Shown here piece by piece: positions 40,039-55,319 of a stretch of 64,000 nucleotides of DNA; the stretch's first letter is position 1; each line of letters opens with the position of its first letter. The notes beneath the pieces were generated by a model. The model made no database searches. It worked only from the letters and a program-made list of their open reading frames with translations, and had not been told where the DNA came from. The stretch spans positions 62,001-126,000 of the forward strand of contig NZ_CABFWF030000014.1 in NCBI RefSeq assembly GCF_902153245.2, given 5' to 3'. The position numbers and the translations under genes were made by a program. The stretch comes from Pseudorhizobium endolithicum. GTDB taxonomy: Bacteria > Pseudomonadota > Alphaproteobacteria > Rhizobiales > Rhizobiaceae.

Positions 40039-40052
40039 TTGCGATTTGACAA
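40039..40052. promoter_or_regulatory. NnrR/FNR-type box between the nnrU operon and norEF
   Basis: TTGCGATTTGACAA fits TTG-N8-CAA, extended to TTTG-N8-CAAA. Its centre lies about 62 nt from the norE start and about 57 nt from the start of the 51-residue gene, so one box could serve both divergent promoters. Confidence 0.75.
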
Positions 40053-40107
40053 AGAACAAGCCGCCACCGGAAGCCATTTTCGCTGCAACCGAAACTGGAG
40101 ATGACAA

Positions 40108-41047: not shown

Positions 41048-41061
41048 TTGCCAAAAAGCAA
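41048..41061. promoter_or_regulatory. NnrR/FNR-type box upstream of norCBQD
   Basis: TTGCCAAAAAGCAA fits TTG-N8-CAA, extended to TTTGC-N6-GCAAA. Its centre is about 136 nt from the norC ATG, which leaves a leader of roughly 95 nt if the box is at -41.5. Confidence 0.75.
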
Positions 41062-45871: not shown

Positions 45872-47224
45872 TCAGGCGGCCTTGCTGTAGGTCCGCTCGG
45901 AGGCGCCGAGATAGGCGTCGAATGCCGCCGCGACGGCACGGATGACGAACCGATGTCTGTCGTCCACCTCGACCGTGCCGGCACCCCGGCGGATCAGTCC
46001 GTCGCTTTCCAGCGCGTCAAGCGCCTTGTTATCCTTCAGCAGGAGGTCCGCGTCGAAACCACGAGCGGCGCAGATTGCAGCCACGTCGACCGAGAAGTCG
46101 CACATCAGCCTCTCGATAACTTCAGCCCGGAGCCGGTCTTCCGACGTCAGCGCGTAGGTCTTGGCCGTGGGCAATTCGCCGGAGGAGACGCGGTTGGCGT
46201 AAAGGCCGGGCGGCACTTCGTTCTGATGGTATCCTTGGCCAAGCCTGCCGATCGCCGAAGCACCTAGGCCGACGAGCGTGTCACAGGTATCGGTGGTATA
46301 TCCCTGGAAGTTCCGGTGCAGACGCCCTTCGCGTTGTGCAACGGCCAGCTCGTCATCAGGCAAGGCGAAGTGGTCCAGGCCGATCTGTCGATAACCGGCC
46401 GCCACGAGCCTCTCCGCGATCGCCTCCGCCTGTGCGTGGCGTCCCTGGGCATCCGGAAGCGCCGCTTCGTCGATCAGTCGCTGGTGCTTCTTAAAGGTAG
46501 GGATATGGGCGTAGCCGAAAACCGCGAAACGATCCGGACGCATCTGCACGGCAGTGTCGACCGTTTCAACGCAGGATTCGACCGTCTGGTAGGGAAGCCC
46601 ATAGATCAGGTCAAAATTGATGGCGTGGATGCCATTCGCGCGAAGGCCATCCACGGCTTTTAACGTCGTCTCCGCGGTCTGGATTCGGTTGATCGCCTTC
46701 TGCACCTTCGGATCGAAGCTCTGCACGCCAAGGCTTGCGCGCGTGACGCCGGAACGTCCAAGTGCTTCCATCATCTCCGCCTGCAGCCGGCGGGGATCGA
46801 TCTCGACGGCCGTGTTGACCTTAGCAGCGAAGCCCAACTTCGTCCGCAATGCCTGCATCAGCGCTACGAATTCCTCGGGCTGTACGATCGTCGGAGTACC
46901 TCCACCGAAGTGGATCTCCCCGACATTCAGGCTGTCGTTCCGTTGGGCAGCGATCAGCTCGATCTCGCGGTGCAGGACGTCGAGATAGTCGAGGATCGGC
47001 TTGTCCTTCTCGGTGATCGTGGTGTGACATCCGCAATACCAGCACATGGACCGGCAGAAAGGGATATGGAGGTAGAGCGAAGTCGCCTGGTTCGCCGGGA
47101 TCGACTTCAGCCAGCTTGCATAGGTGCCCGGGACGACATCGGCGGTGAAATTAGGAGCCGTGGGATAGCTGGTATAGCGCGGCAACCGCGCCTCTCCGTA
47201 TTTTTCCACGATGGACTGCGACAT
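45872..47224 (-). CDS. hemN: Oxygen-independent coproporphyrinogen III dehydrogenase
   Basis: A 450-residue radical-SAM enzyme that makes protoporphyrinogen IX without oxygen, supplying haem for the anaerobic cytochromes of this island. The start at 47224 has an AAGGAAC motif 7 nt ahead. The SAM iron-sulfur cluster motif is C57-x3-C61-x2-C64, with the additional C66 typical of HemN. The N-terminus MSQSIVEKYGEARLPRYTSY and GGGTPTI are family-specific, separating it from HemW. A TTG-N8-CAA box is centred about 65 nt upstream, as in other alphaproteobacteria where hemN is under FNR/NnrR control. Confidence 0.94.
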   Translation of the reverse strand: MSQSIVEKYGEARLPRYTSYPTAPNFTADVVPGTYASWLKSIPANQATSLYLHIPFCRSMCWYCGCHTTITEKDKPILDYLDVLHREIELIAAQRNDSLNVGEIHFGGGTPTIVQPEEFVALMQALRTKLGFAAKVNTAVEIDPRRLQAEMMEALGRSGVTRASLGVQSFDPKVQKAINRIQTAETTLKAVDGLRANGIHAINFDLIYGLPYQTVESCVETVDTAVQMRPDRFAVFGYAHIPTFKKHQRLIDEAALPDAQGRHAQAEAIAERLVAAGYRQIGLDHFALPDDELAVAQREGRLHRNFQGYTTDTCDTLVGLGASAIGRLGQGYHQNEVPPGLYANRVSSGELPTAKTYALTSEDRLRAEVIERLMCDFSVDVAAICAARGFDADLLLKDNKALDALESDGLIRRGAGTVEVDDRHRFVIRAVAAAFDAYLGASERTYSKAA

Positions 47225-47282: not shown

Positions 47283-47296
47283 TTGCGCAATGTCAA
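47283..47296. promoter_or_regulatory. NnrR/FNR-type box for hemN
   Basis: TTGCGCAATGTCAA fits TTG-N8-CAA. Its centre is about 65 nt upstream of the hemN start on the minus strand, a spacing that matches the nnrU-side, norE and nnrS boxes. Confidence 0.75.
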
Positions 47297-47321: not shown

Positions 47322-47335
47322 TTGTCGCACCACAA
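47322..47335. promoter_or_regulatory. NnrR/FNR-type box for the DUF2249 operon
   Basis: TTGTCGCACCACAA fits TTG-N8-CAA, extended to TTTG-N8-CAAA. Its centre is about 97 nt upstream of the plus-strand DUF2249 gene, 39 nt from the hemN box. Confidence 0.65.
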
Positions 47336-47425: not shown

Positions 47426-47698
47426 ATGTCGAATAACGCTGAGATTCCGCTGATCGATGTCAGGGTCATACCGCCTGCAGAGCGTCACCCCCGCATTTTC
47501 GGCGTGCTCACCTCGCTCCAGCCGGGGAACTCGATGCACGTTGCAAGCGACCATGATCCGCGTCCCCTGCACTATCAGCTCGAAAGCCGCTATCCGGAGC
47601 AGTTTGACTGGAGCTACCTGGAGCAGGGCCCCGAAACCTGGCGAGTCCAGATCACCCGCGCCAAGGGTTCGGGCTGCGACTGCTGCTGCGGTCACTGA
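47426..47698 (+). CDS. DUF2249 protein with Cys-rich C-terminus
   Basis: A 90-residue soluble protein of the DUF2249 family, a small TusA/SirA-like alpha/beta fold. The fold is suggested by IDVRVIPPAERHPRIFGVL, then GNSMHVASDHDPRPLHYQLE and the FDWSYLEQGPETWRVQI strand. It ends in GCDCCCGH: four cysteines and a histidine within eight residues, which looks like a metal or cluster-binding tail. DUF2249 proteins are frequent in denitrification and NO-stress loci, often beside hemerythrins, but their function is not known. It is the first gene of a four-gene operon with an NnrR-type box upstream; the next gene starts after 11 nt. Confidence 0.82.
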   Translation: MSNNAEIPLIDVRVIPPAERHPRIFGVLTSLQPGNSMHVASDHDPRPLHYQLESRYPEQFDWSYLEQGPETWRVQITRAKGSGCDCCCGH

Positions 47699-47709
47699 CG
47701 GAGTGACCG

Positions 47710-49065
47710 ATGCAAGGCGCCTCGATTTCCCGCTGGACGATGTCGTATTTCGCGGCAGCGCTCGTCTTCCTCCTCGCAGGACAAGCGCTTCTCGCCGTCG
47801 GATTTGGCTATCCGGTGAAGCCGGTCGAGGCGCCTGAAACCCTGGTCATCGTCCATCTCCTGGCGGTCGGCTGGCTTGGGCTGCTGTTCTGCGGAGCCCT
47901 GCTCCAGTTTGTTCCGGTGCTGGTATCGAAGCCGCTCCATGCGCCCCACCTCGCGCTTCATGCGCTGGTGTTGCTGATCGGCGGCCTTTTGCTGCTCTGC
48001 TGCGGCTTCATTCACCTGGCTGGCTATGTGGAGGGCGGCCTTGTTCTTCTGCCGATCGGCGGCTTGCTTCTGGCCACCGGCTTCACGCTCATCGCCGTCA
48101 TGATCGGAGGCACGGTGCTGCAGGCGCGGCCGGTCGCGCTGTCGGCACGCTTCGTGGGCCTCGGCCTCATCTCTCTGCTTGCCACCGCGGGCCTTGGCCT
48201 TGCGTTTGCGCTCGAACTGTCCGGCCTCACCGACACCGGCTGGCTCCACGCCCTTATTCCGGGCGGGCTCTCGCTGCATGCCTATTTCGGCCTGATCGGC
48301 TGGATGAGCGCCAGTGCCTTTGGCGTCAGCTATCGTCTGATGACGATGTTCCTGCTGTCACCGGAAGCAGAGCGTACCACCAGCCGTACAGCCCTCGCCC
48401 TCCTCGCCGCAGGCATTGCTGCGGCAGCAGCCATCCTGCTCTCCCTCGCCCTGGGCAGGGAAACTTCAGTCGCAGTCCACCTCCCGCTCGGCCTTGCCGC
48501 GGCGGCCGCGCTGCTGTTCGGTTACGACGTCCTGACCATCTATAGAACCCGCAAGCGCAAGTCGCTCGAACTCAACACGATCATGAGCGCCGGGGCGGTC
48601 GCGGCACTGATGCTCTCCGTCCTGCTTTATCTCACCCTCGTGCTGACAGGCAGGCTGCAGGACGATATCGGCACCCTGGTCTACCTCGTCGGCTTCGGCT
48701 GGCTTTCCCTGCTCGGCCTGGGGCAGCTCTACAAGATCGTCGCCTTCATGACCTGGCTGGAATATTATGGACCGGTATTGGGACGCAGGCCGGTTCCGCG
48801 AGTACAGGATCTTGTCAATGAACGACGCGCCTCGGGATGGTTCTATCTGTATGCGGCAATGGTAGCCGTCGCGGTGGCATTTCTCCTTGCCGGCATTGCA
48901 TTCCCCGTCCAGGTGGCTGCTCTCGGACAGGCGATCGCAGCTGCCGGCTTGATGGTCGAGCTCGCCCGCACGCGCCATCTTTGCTATGTTTCAACCGAGC
49001 CGGCCGATTCCAAGGTCCGTCGGCATCCGCCGCTCTTCCTGCCAAACCCCGTCGAACGGAGCTGA
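47710..49065 (+). CDS. Polytopic membrane protein, possible haem-copper-oxidase-fold relative
   Basis: A 451-residue integral membrane protein with roughly 12 hydrophobic helices. I do not recognise it with certainty. Features: an early helix VIVHLLAVGWLGLLFCGALL with a histidine in the position of a haem ligand, ALIPGGLSLHAYFGLIGWMS with a second, LVYLVGFGWLSLLGLGQLYK, and a cytoplasmic KIVAFMTWLEYYGPVLGR. This pattern of His-containing helices recalls cytochrome oxidase subunit I / NorB-like proteins, but the paired histidines that bind copper or FeB are missing. It lies between two DUF2249 genes under an NnrR-type box, so it is probably NO-induced; a haem- or NO-related membrane role is inference. 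The next gene starts 2 nt after the stop. Confidence 0.8.
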   Translation: MQGASISRWTMSYFAAALVFLLAGQALLAVGFGYPVKPVEAPETLVIVHLLAVGWLGLLFCGALLQFVPVLVSKPLHAPHLALHALVLLIGGLLLLCCGFIHLAGYVEGGLVLLPIGGLLLATGFTLIAVMIGGTVLQARPVALSARFVGLGLISLLATAGLGLAFALELSGLTDTGWLHALIPGGLSLHAYFGLIGWMSASAFGVSYRLMTMFLLSPEAERTTSRTALALLAAGIAAAAAILLSLALGRETSVAVHLPLGLAAAAALLFGYDVLTIYRTRKRKSLELNTIMSAGAVAALMLSVLLYLTLVLTGRLQDDIGTLVYLVGFGWLSLLGLGQLYKIVAFMTWLEYYGPVLGRRPVPRVQDLVNERRASGWFYLYAAMVAVAVAFLLAGIAFPVQVAALGQAIAAAGLMVELARTRHLCYVSTEPADSKVRRHPPLFLPNPVERS

Positions 49066-49067
49066 TC

Positions 49068-49601
49068 ATGGCCATCGAATACAAGACACTGGACGTCCGG
49101 CCGATTCTCCTGTCCGGAGGCGAGCCCTTCCCGGCGATCATGGGCGCCGTCGACGATCTCATGCCCGGTCAGGGTCTGAAGCTCCTCGCTCCCTTCCGTC
49201 CCCAGCCGCTGTTCTCCGTCATGGAACGCCGCGGCTTCGACTATGAACTGGAGGAGATGGGGGGCGGCGACTTCGAGGTGCGCTTCCTGCCGAAGCAGCC
49301 ACAAGCAACCGTCGATGCCTCGGTCAACGCCAATGCCCCCGACCTCTGGCCGGAGCCGTCGGTGGATCTGGACCTGTCCGAACTCGATCCGCCGGAGCCG
49401 ATGGTGAGGCTTCTGGCCGAGGCCGAACGCTTGGAACCCGGCGAGGTCATATTCGCGGTGCTGTCCCGCGAACCCCTCTTTCTCTTTCCAGAGCTGACAC
49501 GACGCGGGCACCAATGGGTCGGTAACTTCGACACGACCGGCAGCTTCTACCGGATCATGATACGCGTCGGTGCGACGGAAGAGAGCAGTCATGGACGATG
49601 A
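49068..49601 (+). CDS. Tandem DUF2249 protein
   Basis: A 177-residue soluble protein with two DUF2249-like halves. The first spans residues ~1-75 (KTLDVRPILLSGGEPFPAIM, then GQGLKLLAPFRPQPLF and GFDYELEEMGGGDFEVRF). The second spans ~95-172 (LDLSELDPPEPMVRLLAEAE, then GEVIFAVLSREPLFLFPELT and GHQWVGNFDTTGSFYRIMI). It lacks the Cys tail of the first DUF2249 protein in the operon. The ATG at 49068 follows the previous stop by 2 nt; the frame extends upstream only inside the membrane-protein gene. Its last 11 nt overlap the MIP18-like gene. Function unknown; the operon context points to nitrosative stress or metallocentre maintenance. Confidence 0.82.
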   Translation: MAIEYKTLDVRPILLSGGEPFPAIMGAVDDLMPGQGLKLLAPFRPQPLFSVMERRGFDYELEEMGGGDFEVRFLPKQPQATVDASVNANAPDLWPEPSVDLDLSELDPPEPMVRLLAEAERLEPGEVIFAVLSREPLFLFPELTRRGHQWVGNFDTTGSFYRIMIRVGATEESSHGR

Positions 49602-49881
49602 ACCCACCGAACTCGTCCAGCGGATTCGCGACGCGCTGGCCGATGTGATCGATCCGGAACTGGGTCGCGACGTGGTGGGGCTCGGCCTGATCTATGCGAT
49701 CGAGGCGGACGAAGAAGATACGGTACGCATCACCATGACAACCACGACGGCAGGCTGTCCGGCCGTCGGCTTTCTCGTCGACGCGGTCCGCTTTGCCGCC
49801 ACCGAGGTACAAGGAGTGCGGTCGGTCGAGGTCCGGCTGACCTACGAACCGCGTTGGCGGCCGGAAATGATGACGGCCTGA
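49591..49881 (+). CDS. MIP18/DUF59-family iron-sulfur assembly factor-like protein
   Basis: A 96-residue protein of the MIP18 (SufT/PaaD/DUF59) family. The family motif DPELGRDVVGLGLIYAI (DPE at 21-23) is followed by the conserved Thr-rich and Cys segment TMTTTTAGCPAVG (C56), then SVEVRLTYEPRW. Members assist maturation or repair of iron-sulfur proteins. The start at 49591 is the ATG inside the last codons of the tandem DUF2249 gene (11-nt overlap), implying coupled translation. It ends the operon; a GC-rich hairpin (GCCGCC-TTGC-GGCGGC near 49921) lies between it and the convergent nnrS. Confidence 0.87.
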   Translation: MDDEPTELVQRIRDALADVIDPELGRDVVGLGLIYAIEADEEDTVRITMTTTTAGCPAVGFLVDAVRFAATEVQGVRSVEVRLTYEPRWRPEMMTA

Positions 49882-49943: not shown

Positions 49944-51158
49944 TCAGATGAGCTTTCTCCGGACCTTGGCAAGCATCGGTCCGTATTCGATCAGGAACAG
50001 GCCGAAGGCGGACAACCAGGCCGCACCGGACACCGTGTAGAACAGTTGCGCGTAGTCCGGCAGGATGTCGGCCAGAGGCCTCACCACGGCCGCCAGAATG
50101 ATTGCGCCATAGATGACGGAGGTCGTTCTCGATGCTGTAAGGACGCGGCCGGTGTGACCGCGGGTCGCGCGTGTCATCACGGCCAGCATCATCGAAGCTA
50201 CTGTTCCAACAGTCACAAGATGCAGCGCCGCCATTGGCGATAAGGCGTTCAGCGCACTCAGTCCTATCCCCAGGAAACCCAACGGCACGAACAGGTAGGC
50301 CATGTGAAGGACGGTCACCAGGTGCTCCTGCAATGTGGTCCATCCCCGCCAGCGCGCGAGGCGCACCGAATGCAGGAGGAAAGCGGTCCCCGTGACGAGG
50401 GCAACCACTGCTCCCTCGCCGATGAGCACCCAGGCCGCCAGAGCTGCGATGCCGGAGAGGATCGCAATGCTGTCGAAGGTGCTGTAGGGCGCCGGAAAAT
50501 CGGTTCGGCCGCTCTTGTTGATCCAGTTGCGGGTAAAGCTCGGAATGATCCGCCCGCCGATGATCATCACCAGGACGACATAAGCGGAGACCGCGAGCTT
50601 GATGGCGAGGTCCGGATGGAGATCCTGCAGCACCTGGACATGGAAGAGGATATTGCCGGCCGTCAGCGCAAGCAGGCCCCCGATGACCTTCAGGTCCTTC
50701 CATTTGCGCCCGGCAACAACTTCCCGCACGCAGATCAGCAGCAGGACAGGAAGAAACAGGCTATCGACGGCAGCCATCGCAGACGCGCCGACAACGCCCG
50801 GCGCCAGGAATATCACTCTTCCGGCGACCCAGACCCCGAAGAGCCAGAAGAGCGGCCAGCCTGAAACCGGTAGCCTTCCGGTCCAGTTCGGGACGGCCGT
50901 CAACAGGAAGCCGGCAAGCACCGCCGATGAGTAGCCGAAGAGCATCTCGTGTGCATGCCAGTGCGCGGGACCGTAATCTTCTGCCACGGTGGCGAGCCCG
51001 GCGAGGCTGGAGATCCACAGGATCATCGTAATGACGGCCCAGAAAGCCGCGCCCAGGAAGAAGGGCCGGAAGCCATAGGAAAAAAGCACCGGCGCGGTTG
51101 GCGACAATCCCCGCGGAATTCCGCCCTTCCGGGGTTGATCGACGGAACCTAAGGTCAT
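49944..51158 (-). CDS. nnrS: NnrS family haem-copper membrane protein
   Basis: A 404-residue membrane protein with about 12 helices, belonging to NnrS. Diagnostic segments are LFSYGFRPFFLGAAFWA near the N-terminus, WHAHEMLFGYSSAVLAGFLL with the conserved histidines, TAVPNWTGRLP and RIIPSFTRNWI, and MTRATRGHTGR later. NnrS binds haem and copper and is linked to relief of nitrosative stress, shown in Vibrio and Rhodobacter. A TTG-N8-CAA box centred about 63 nt upstream indicates NnrR control. It is divergent from nirK. Confidence 0.93.
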   Translation of the reverse strand: MTLGSVDQPRKGGIPRGLSPTAPVLFSYGFRPFFLGAAFWAVITMILWISSLAGLATVAEDYGPAHWHAHEMLFGYSSAVLAGFLLTAVPNWTGRLPVSGWPLFWLFGVWVAGRVIFLAPGVVGASAMAAVDSLFLPVLLLICVREVVAGRKWKDLKVIGGLLALTAGNILFHVQVLQDLHPDLAIKLAVSAYVVLVMIIGGRIIPSFTRNWINKSGRTDFPAPYSTFDSIAILSGIAALAAWVLIGEGAVVALVTGTAFLLHSVRLARWRGWTTLQEHLVTVLHMAYLFVPLGFLGIGLSALNALSPMAALHLVTVGTVASMMLAVMTRATRGHTGRVLTASRTTSVIYGAIILAAVVRPLADILPDYAQLFYTVSGAAWLSAFGLFLIEYGPMLAKVRRKLI

Positions 51159-51214: not shown

Positions 51215-51228
51215 TTGCGAATGCGCAA
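51215..51228. promoter_or_regulatory. NnrR/FNR-type box for nnrS
   Basis: TTGCGAATGCGCAA is a near-perfect palindrome (TTGCG-N4-CGCAA), the form reported for NnrR sites in Rhodobacter. Its centre is about 63 nt upstream of the nnrS start on the minus strand. Confidence 0.82.
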
Positions 51229-51247
51229 GGAAAATCGCTGGCAATAT

Positions 51248-51261
51248 TTGTCCCGGGTCAA
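51248..51261. promoter_or_regulatory. NnrR/FNR-type box for nirK
   Basis: TTGTCCCGGGTCAA fits TTG-N8-CAA, extended to TTTG-N8-CAAA. Its centre is about 86 nt upstream of the nirK ATG, leaving a leader of about 45 nt if the box is at -41.5. Confidence 0.78.
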
Positions 51262-54833: not shown

Positions 54834-55319
54834 TTACTCCGCCGAGTCCGCCGGCTCTGCGTTGAGCAGGCCGTAACGCTCCTCGCCGATCTTGGCGAGC
54901 AGGTCGAGCTGGGTCTCGAGGAAATCGATATGTCCTTCCTCGTCGGCCAGAAGCTCCTCAAAAAGCTTCATGGAGACATAGTCTCCGGCGGCGTGACAGA
55001 TATCGCGCGATGCCTTGTAGGCGGTACGGGCGTCGTACTCGCCGGCGAGGTCCGCTTCCAGGACTTCCTTGACGTTCTGGCCGATGCGCAACGGCGCGAC
55101 CGTTTGGAGATTGGGATGGCCTTCAAGGAAGATGATCCGATCGATCAGCCGGTCGGCGTGATGCATCTCCTCGATGGATTCCTCACGCTCCTTCTTCGCC
55201 AGCTTAGCATAGCCCCAATCCGATAGCAGACGGTAGTGAAGCCAATATTGGTTGACGGCGCCGAGTTCGAGGAACAGAGCCTCGTTAAGCCGCTCGATGA
55301 CGCTGCTGTCGCCTTTCAA
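54834..55319 (-). CDS. bfr: Bacterioferritin
   Basis: A 161-residue haem-containing ferritin that oxidises and stores iron as a 24-mer. All di-iron ligands are at the canonical positions: E18, E51, H54, E94, E127 and H130. M52, which binds the inter-subunit haem, is also present (EEMHHADR). The start at 55319 overlaps the 3' end of bfd by 35 nt, which implies tight translational coupling. Placement next to a haem- and iron-demanding denitrification island is suggestive, but no NnrR box is visible upstream of bfd. Confidence 0.95.

Follow-up and report, generated by a model that had tools for sequence, protein, structure and literature searches.

Within a 64,000-nt stretch of the Pseudorhizobium endolithicum genome (contig NZ_CABFWF030000014.1, positions 62,001 to 126,000; hereafter the window), a denitrification island carries four tightly packed genes that encode two DUF2249 proteins (D1 and D2), a polytopic membrane protein (MEM) and a MIP18-type protein (MIP). 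We find the same little-studied four-gene unit beside nitrogen-oxide respiration genes in a range of proteobacteria. It looks to be induced by nitric oxide (NO), and it may serve the upkeep of iron-sulfur (Fe-S) enzymes under NO stress. NO from nitrogen-oxide respiration attacks Fe-S clusters, and to our knowledge little is known about how HemN and similar enzymes are kept functional in such bacteria. A role of this kind would give DUF2249 a context, would add an oxidase-fold membrane family that lacks a Pfam match, and would be an example of a regulator that was exchanged while the signal, NO, was apparently kept. The genes of the cassette are:

47,426-47,698, + strand: D1, 90 aa; single DUF2249 domain and C-terminal GCDCCCGH tail; PF10006, E = 5e-29
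47,710-49,065, + strand: MEM, 451 aa; 12-helix membrane protein, heme-copper-oxidase fold by model
49,068-49,601, + strand: D2, 177 aa; two DUF2249 domains; PF10006, E = 6e-33 in two stretches
49,591-49,881, + strand: MIP, 96 aa; MIP18/DUF59 type; PF01883, E = 6e-19

The cassette is conserved as a unit

D1 and MEM are separated by 11 nt and MEM and D2 by 2 nt, and D2 overlaps MIP by 11 nt. This order and spacing, the domain families and the flanking hemN and nnrS genes had been described in an earlier reading made from the sequence alone (the sequence-only reading); open reading frame coordinates and Pfam and NCBIfam searches agree with that description. From a contig scan with MEM we kept the best 80 of 117 relatives and added pSymA of Sinorhizobium meliloti 1021 (L084; its near copy L085 is excluded from counts), giving 81 loci that are related by descent, so that counts among them are not independent. 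D2 is the next gene after MEM in 81/81 loci, MIP is present in 78/81 and D1 in 73/81. MEM and D2 overlap by at most 38 nt or lie at most 22 nt apart, save for one read-through frame, and D2-MIP spacing is -14 to +5 nt in 68/78 loci, the others being nine longer MIP genes and one displaced gene. On pSymA, and also in strain ABS7, hemN and nnrS again flank the cassette, with nirK and nor nearby; S. meliloti 1021 is amenable to genetic work. In a phylum sample of 398 genomes, 52 have a MEM match, comprising 13 strong matches (window included), with D2 and MIP adjacent in all 13, and 39 distant ones.

The loci fall into three types: those with a Cys-tailed D1 (49 plus the window), those with a tailless D1 (24, including L076, whose D1 start is misplaced and which was left out of A5) and those with no D1 in place (8). 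On a MEM tree with SH-aLRT support only, these types require 6 changes, versus 28 in shuffles. Comparison of the loci shows that the cassette travels as a unit. MEMs from gammaproteobacteria (L064, L067, L075 and L078) nest among alphaproteobacterial MEMs, which suggests horizontal transfer. We considered the read-through frame (L036, 632 aa, 1/81 loci) as possible evidence of contact between MEM and D2, yet an AAGGA-like site and an ATG precede D2 there, and we treat this frame as stop loss or a sequence error.

Upstream sites point to two NO-type switches

The region between hemN and D1 contains two boxes of the NnrR/FNR type. These sites and the two flanking genes are:

45,872-47,224 (from ATG), - strand: hemN; TIGR00538 above cut-off; cassette flank
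47,283-47,296: TTG-N8-CAA box, NnrR/FNR type; 58 nt before the hemN ATG, 129 nt before D1
47,322-47,335: TTG-N8-CAA box, NnrR/FNR type; 90 nt before the D1 ATG
49,944-51,158, - strand: nnrS; PF05940, 371 bits; cassette flank on the other side

The sequence-only reading had noted a single box; the TTG-N8-CAA pattern is indeed present and recurs in relatives, but two sites fit it. The box at 47,322-47,335 is probably the cassette's own, and that at 47,283-47,296 probably serves hemN; a second, more remote box recurs in many tailed loci. Within 300 nt upstream of the cassette, a box occurs in 49/49 tailed loci (3.2 expected from resampled sequence), 3/24 tailless loci (1.6 expected) and 7/8 loci without D1 (0.5 expected), while a control stretch within MEM contains one in 0/81. 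The cassette box fits the published alphaproteobacterial NnrR motif, ctTTGcgnnnncgCAAag (PMC1274295; TTG-N8-CAAA is cited in PMC5596199), and an NnrR-type box at a similar place in relatives marks it as a candidate site on sequence grounds. Because FixK-type boxes overlap this pattern, we assign the box to an NnrR/FNR class rather than to NnrR alone. The window as a whole holds 16 such boxes versus 8.9 expected, with at least 16 in 1/100 shuffles, and 7/16 sit at four denitrification promoters; boxes lie at 40,039-40,059 (before a norE-like gene), 41,048-41,061 (before a norC-like gene) and 51,215-51,261 (between nnrS and nirK).

Tailless loci carry a different site. A near-perfect 23-bp palindrome (at least 16/23 positions) precedes the cassette in 20/24 of them, in 0/49 tailed loci and in 1/1200 shuffled sequences. 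A matrix derived from these palindromes, with its scan reported on one strand only, finds 23 sites across all loci, one each, including L044, L074 and L076. The palindrome matches the published NsrR motif, gATGyAT-N5-ATrCATc (PMC1274295), in spacing and outer bases, frequently with A for G. Furthermore, an Rrf2-family gene lies near 13/24 tailless and 3/49 tailed loci. Its representative scores best against NsrR, at 134.7 versus a cut-off of 182 and with RirA close behind, so that NsrR is a probable rather than a certain name for the regulator of the tailless group.

Three loci with NnrR-type boxes (L030, L036 and L046) nest within this palindrome-bearing group on the MEM tree, and the switch protein has therefore probably changed while both types fit NO. 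One genome (G575) has two cassettes (L066 and L068), one with an NsrR-type palindrome and the other with an NnrR-type box. By comparison across loci, the cassette has upstream sites of two distinct NO-responsive types, NnrR or NsrR. The NO-type control proposed in the sequence-only reading is thereby supported by sites of two unrelated regulators, and we regard such control, predicted from these sites, as very likely.

The cassette seems to accompany nitrogen-oxide respiration rather than NirK

In an even sample of 179 genomes of the order (p values uncorrected for phylogeny), MEM occurs in 8, DUF2249 in 21, NirK in 35 and cNorB in 30. DUF2249 is found in all 8 MEM genomes (p = 9e-9). NirK is found in 6/8, versus 29/171 genomes without MEM (p = 0.0008), or in 5/7 when the window's own genome is removed (p = 0.003); the corresponding figures for cNorB are 4/8 (p = 0.03) and 3/7 (p = 0.09). 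Across the examined flanks of the 81 loci, we found nirK/norCQD genes at 47, nar/nap at 25, nos at 6, nnrS/nnrU/nnrR-like genes at 57 and Rrf2 genes at 17; as judged by clusters, 75/81 loci have at least one nitrogen-oxide, nnrR-like or Rrf2 gene. Apparent norB neighbours in L010, L049, L053 and L060 score above the ccoN cut-off and were taken as cbb3 oxidase genes, not counted as nor. Association of the cassette with nitrogen-oxide genes, for which the sequence-only reading proposed a co-occurrence check, is supported by these counts.

Genes for nirK/norCQD lie near 47/49 tailed loci, 0/24 tailless loci and 0/8 loci without D1. This distribution would suit an assembly or activity factor, in which MEM, together with the DUF2249 and MIP18 proteins, would assist the maturation of NirK or NorCB (insertion of heme, Cu or non-heme Fe) and the D1 Cys tail would carry metal; Rodionov et al. 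likewise suggested that COG4309 (DUF2249) is relevant to NO reductase (PMC1274295). The other 34 loci, from 33 genomes, argue against it. A NirK match lies elsewhere in 23 of these genomes (above cut-off in 22), but the remaining 10 have none, most of these with narG, and just 8/33 have a cNorB- or qNorB-like match (E <= 1e-30); some of the genomes are metagenome-assembled and possibly incomplete. On this balance we consider an assembly factor unlikely.

We then collected the 13 genomes without a clear NirK, namely 11 of the 33 (G577 having sub-cut-off matches) and two from the order sample (G031 and G171). NarG is present in 9 of them and NirS in 1. Since NirK or NO reductase is missing from part of the cassette genomes while NarG is present in 9/13, the constant factor seems to be nitrogen-oxide respiration, not NirK or NO reductase, and the earlier tie to NO made by NirK is not supported. 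We also considered the cassette as a replacement for NO reductase. Genomes with nirK and without cNorB are common anyway (20/35 in the order sample), and we therefore dropped this as a signature. The contig of one cassette relative (L132) also carries a nirK-like gene and a qNorB-like one, the latter with COX1 and NorB cytochrome-c-like domains.

MEM is predicted to have an oxidase fold with two invariant histidines

MEM matches no Pfam or NCBIfam family significantly (best E 0.43 and 0.91, respectively), and a PDB sequence search with it returned no match. Its predicted structure consists of 12 long helices in the subunit-I arrangement of the heme-copper oxidase/NO reductase superfamily, and the structures closest to it are those of cbb3 oxidase and NO reductase, with 10-15% identity in the top rows. 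That MEM has a heme-copper-oxidase fold is, given this model, almost certain. We tried to support oxidase kinship by sequence as well; profile comparison of MEM with NorB and NnrS was not significant (best E 0.0042, 8% probability), with the best sub-significant alignment setting MEM helices 1-4 against the final part of NorB, and the kinship therefore rests on the structure model. MEM does not belong to the NnrS family, having no PF05940 match and a profile-comparison probability below 1% with NnrS.

Only two histidines, H49 in helix 2 and H190 in helix 6, are invariant across 82/82 sequences (window included), and the majority of the others are not conserved. The sequence-only reading had described a ~12-helix protein with His-bearing helices; the helix count stands, and the conserved histidines reduce to these two. 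The most strongly conserved parts of MEM are the cytoplasmic halves of helices 2, 6 and 10. Heme-copper oxidases have six conserved histidines that serve two hemes and Cu/Fe_B, and this set is not found in MEM. For the window's NorB, H237, H238, H326 and H328, which we take to be metal ligands, are kept in 45/45 sequences. As MEM has no invariant histidine beyond H49 and H190, it would have no canonical binuclear centre. There is good support for the prediction that MEM is an inner-membrane protein of oxidase fold whose two invariant histidines suffice for one heme, and it is likely, judging from these residues, that it binds a single heme.

These features bear on the possibility that the cassette handles NO directly, the MEM heme binding, reducing or oxidising NO while the soluble proteins supply electrons or monitor the state of MEM. 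The structural matches to cbb3 oxidase and NO reductase fit this proposal, as do the NO-type regulation and the lack of a recognised NO reductase in 25 of the 33 cassette genomes without nirK/norCQD close by. Against it stand the missing binuclear centre and the order sample, in which cNorB is absent from 2/6 nirK genomes with MEM versus 18/29 without MEM. We regard direct NO handling as quite unlikely.

D2 aligns with TusA but has proline in place of its cysteine

D1 and D2 score 100.4 and 112.9 bits against PF10006 (cut-off 29.5) and are thus DUF2249 members; the window's genome contains three DUF2249 matches, every one inside the cassette. The D1 C-terminus reads GCDCCCGH, in agreement with the Cys4-His tail described earlier. 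Its structure model (pLDDT 86.6) is a small alpha-beta fold whose structural matches are weak, with TusA and TsuB among the nearest, and D2 also matches TusA by sequence (PF01206, E = 5e-7). Such resemblance could indicate a sulfur or thiol relay, with DUF2249 as a TusA-like persulfide carrier working with a membrane transporter, as in TsuB-TsuA. When the second DUF2249 domain of D2 is aligned with TusA, however, PPEP replaces CPEP: P108 and P109 are invariant (82/82), and the CPxP cysteine of TusA is not kept in any of the 82 sequences, with proline at that site. D2 is therefore predicted, with good support, to be without the sulfur-carrying cysteine. The structural matches of MEM, moreover, are oxidases and include no transporters, and we think a sulfur relay highly improbable.

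Iron proteins recur around the cassette and its relatives

MIP scores 68.6 bits against PF01883 (cut-off 23.5), placing it in this family, and has a solved relative in TM0487 (1uwd, E = 5e-21); its cysteine C56 is invariant (79/79). It falls below the NCBIfam cut-offs for SUF_assoc (82.6 versus 143.4 bits), SufT (60.7 versus 202.6) and PaaD. In nine cassette loci the MIP gene has an N-terminal extension of ~100 aa, which Pfam names Nfu_N in 8/8 scanned, the ninth (L049) being similar by eye; L130, from another sample, also has Nfu_N-MIP18. Genes for the ferredoxin FdxA, lipoyl synthase (LipA) and a CMD protein continue on the same strand in 4 loci: two of Rhodanobacter (L064 and L075), one of Lysobacteraceae (L078) and one of an unplaced proteobacterium (L067), which branches with the other three on the tree. 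FdxA and LipA were called on one representative each (over cut-off), and the other loci were assigned by clusters.

We examined 14 of the 39 distant MEM matches of the phylum sample with wide flanks, and 13 of these adjoin genes of one family. This family has a hemerythrin domain in 11/11 members scanned and also DUF2249 in 8/11 (E <= 0.01, 5 of these 8 falling under the DUF2249 cut-off). The DUF2249-hemerythrin gene lies recurrently beside distant MEMs in L116-L126, where contig sets share further conserved neighbours. The gene hemN is in the flank of 44/82 loci (L085 counted). Taken with the Nfu_N-MIP18 fusions, FdxA and LipA, the hemerythrin proteins indicate that the recurrent partners are iron proteins. 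The iron-centre repair role proposed from the sequence is supported indirectly by these fusions, the ferredoxin and lipoyl synthase genes and the hemerythrin-DUF2249 pairing. Separately, a family of ~90-aa genes occurs in 17 loci (e.g. L010, 12,163-12,453), directly after MIP in those listed; the one member scanned has no Pfam or NCBIfam match, and a DUF6522 gene sometimes follows.

The partners also bear on whether the cassette is a sensor module, in which DUF2249 and MEM would detect nitrate or NO and adjust transcription in the manner suggested for DrpA/DrpB of Thermus. DrpA is a DUF2249 protein whose gene lies close to nar, and nar expression changes when DrpA or DrpB is lost (PMC6282519); haloarchaeal DUF2249 genes, including all four in Haloferax mediterranei, are induced in denitrification (PMC11218638). 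The cassette proteins, however, contain no DNA-binding or kinase domain recognised by Pfam or NCBIfam, the cassette itself sits behind NnrR- or NsrR-type sites, and it is hard to see what MIP18/Nfu_N, FdxA and LipA would do in such a module. We therefore hold a sensor module to be improbable.

A tentative model for the cassette

Our tentative reading, for which the case falls a little short of even, is that the cassette encodes a membrane-linked, NO-induced module for the upkeep of Fe-S enzymes. The four genes would form one cassette expressed when NO is present. The DUF2249 proteins would dock onto the conserved cytoplasmic face of MEM and tie it to an iron-handling partner, MIP18 here and Nfu_N-MIP18 or a hemerythrin domain in relatives. 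MEM would either hand electrons from the quinone/cytochrome pool to the complex, or bind NO and gate the complex, which would insert or restore Fe-S clusters in NO-sensitive enzymes such as the neighbouring HemN (a radical-SAM enzyme by domain scan) or lipoyl synthase. Within this Fe-S maintenance reading, we find it an even call whether MEM supplies electrons rather than senses NO.

The pore between helices 2 and 6 is not known to be occupied in oxidases. A bolder form of the model, which we consider doubtful, is a new membrane-coupled Fe-S repair machine. One heme, held by MEM in this pore, would power or gate cluster repair in the cytosol, with the DUF2249 proteins as adaptors; the iron module would be interchangeable (MIP18, Nfu_N-MIP18 or hemerythrin), and NnrR and NsrR would have been swapped as switches.

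Several observations weigh against Fe-S maintenance. Fe-S delivery rests on family names, with MIP below every named NCBIfam equivalog cut-off; the Nfu_N and LipA links are confined to part of the group; and the MEM heme is inferred from two histidines. D1 is missing in 8/81 loci and MIP in 3/81 (2 of these 3 on short contigs). An Rrf2 gene was not seen near 11/24 tailless loci, and the examined flanks of L021, L052, L053, L060, L062 and L063 contain no nitrogen-oxide or NO-regulator gene. Finally, the D1 Cys tail tracks nir/nor islands, which Fe-S maintenance leaves unexplained; because this link also coincides with a split between lineages on the tree, we left the odds of the readings unchanged.

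Neighbouring genes in the window

Upstream of the cassette, Pfam identifies NnrU, COX3-type, cytochrome c, COX1, CbbQ_C and VWA genes, of which we take the last five, from their order, to be norE-, norC-, norB-, norQ- and norD-like, respectively. Downstream lie nirK (TIGR02376), an FGE-type gene and a Crp-family gene, the latter two presumably nirV-like and nnrR-like on the same grounds. A ferritin-family frame (PF00210) is present near the nirK cluster at 54,834-55,319 (- strand). The genome (G000) contains two more TIGR02376 matches above cut-off (C15:173960-174859 and C11:119807-120694), which score far under the window's nirK and are possibly other copper oxidases.

Comparison with known systems

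We found no account of the four-gene cassette in the literature searched, in which subscription papers were mostly beyond reach, and searches of the same literature by SMa locus tag returned nothing on the S. meliloti cassette operon. A 2006 paper by De Bruijn, going by its title, reportedly concerns an NO-inducible, NnrR-dependent operon of S. meliloti, which may be the cassette operon. The earlier description of the module as undescribed holds for the four genes together, but not for DUF2249, since Rodionov et al. (2005) had already placed COG4309, by prediction, in the regulons of both NnrR and NsrR and connected it with NO reductase (PMC1274295). Their DUF2249 gene resembles ours in lying near nor, controlled by NnrR in rhizobia and by NsrR in betaproteobacteria; in contrast to the cassette, the passages of that paper name neither a membrane protein nor a MIP18 gene, and they assign no Fe-S role. 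DUF2249 was still called unknown in function in 2024, when one H. mediterranei member was annotated as a P-loop Fe-S carrier (PMC11218638). The Thermus DrpA/DrpB pair likewise places a DUF2249 protein within a nitrate-respiration cluster, but DrpB has 273 aa and the passages describing it mention no MEM or MIP18 gene (PMC6282519).

MEM also resembles two groups of 12-helix, oxidase-fold, NO-linked membrane proteins with few conserved histidines: NnrS, and the HCO-homology (HCOH) proteins reportedly described by Pei et al. in 2014 as oxidase-fold homologues. Unlike either, MEM is accompanied by DUF2249 and MIP18 genes, and it has no profile or Pfam match to NnrS, the neighbouring nnrS being a separate gene. 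From CcoN and NorB it differs in its 10-15% identity, its lack of a PDB sequence match and the loss of the catalytic histidine set. The di-iron Fe-S repair proteins YtfE/RIC are NO-regulated too (dnrN is under NsrR control; PMC1274295), and a hemerythrin domain is present in the partner of distant MEM relatives, whereas the window's cassette has no hemerythrin and the distant partner scores 29 versus a RIC cut-off of 205 bits. Finally, MIP shares the PF01883 domain with SufT- and PaaD-like MIP18 proteins, and, as a link to Nfu carriers, fusions to Nfu_N occur among its relatives; it differs from these in scoring below the SUF_assoc, SufT and PaaD cut-offs and in its pairing with an oxidase-fold membrane protein and DUF2249.

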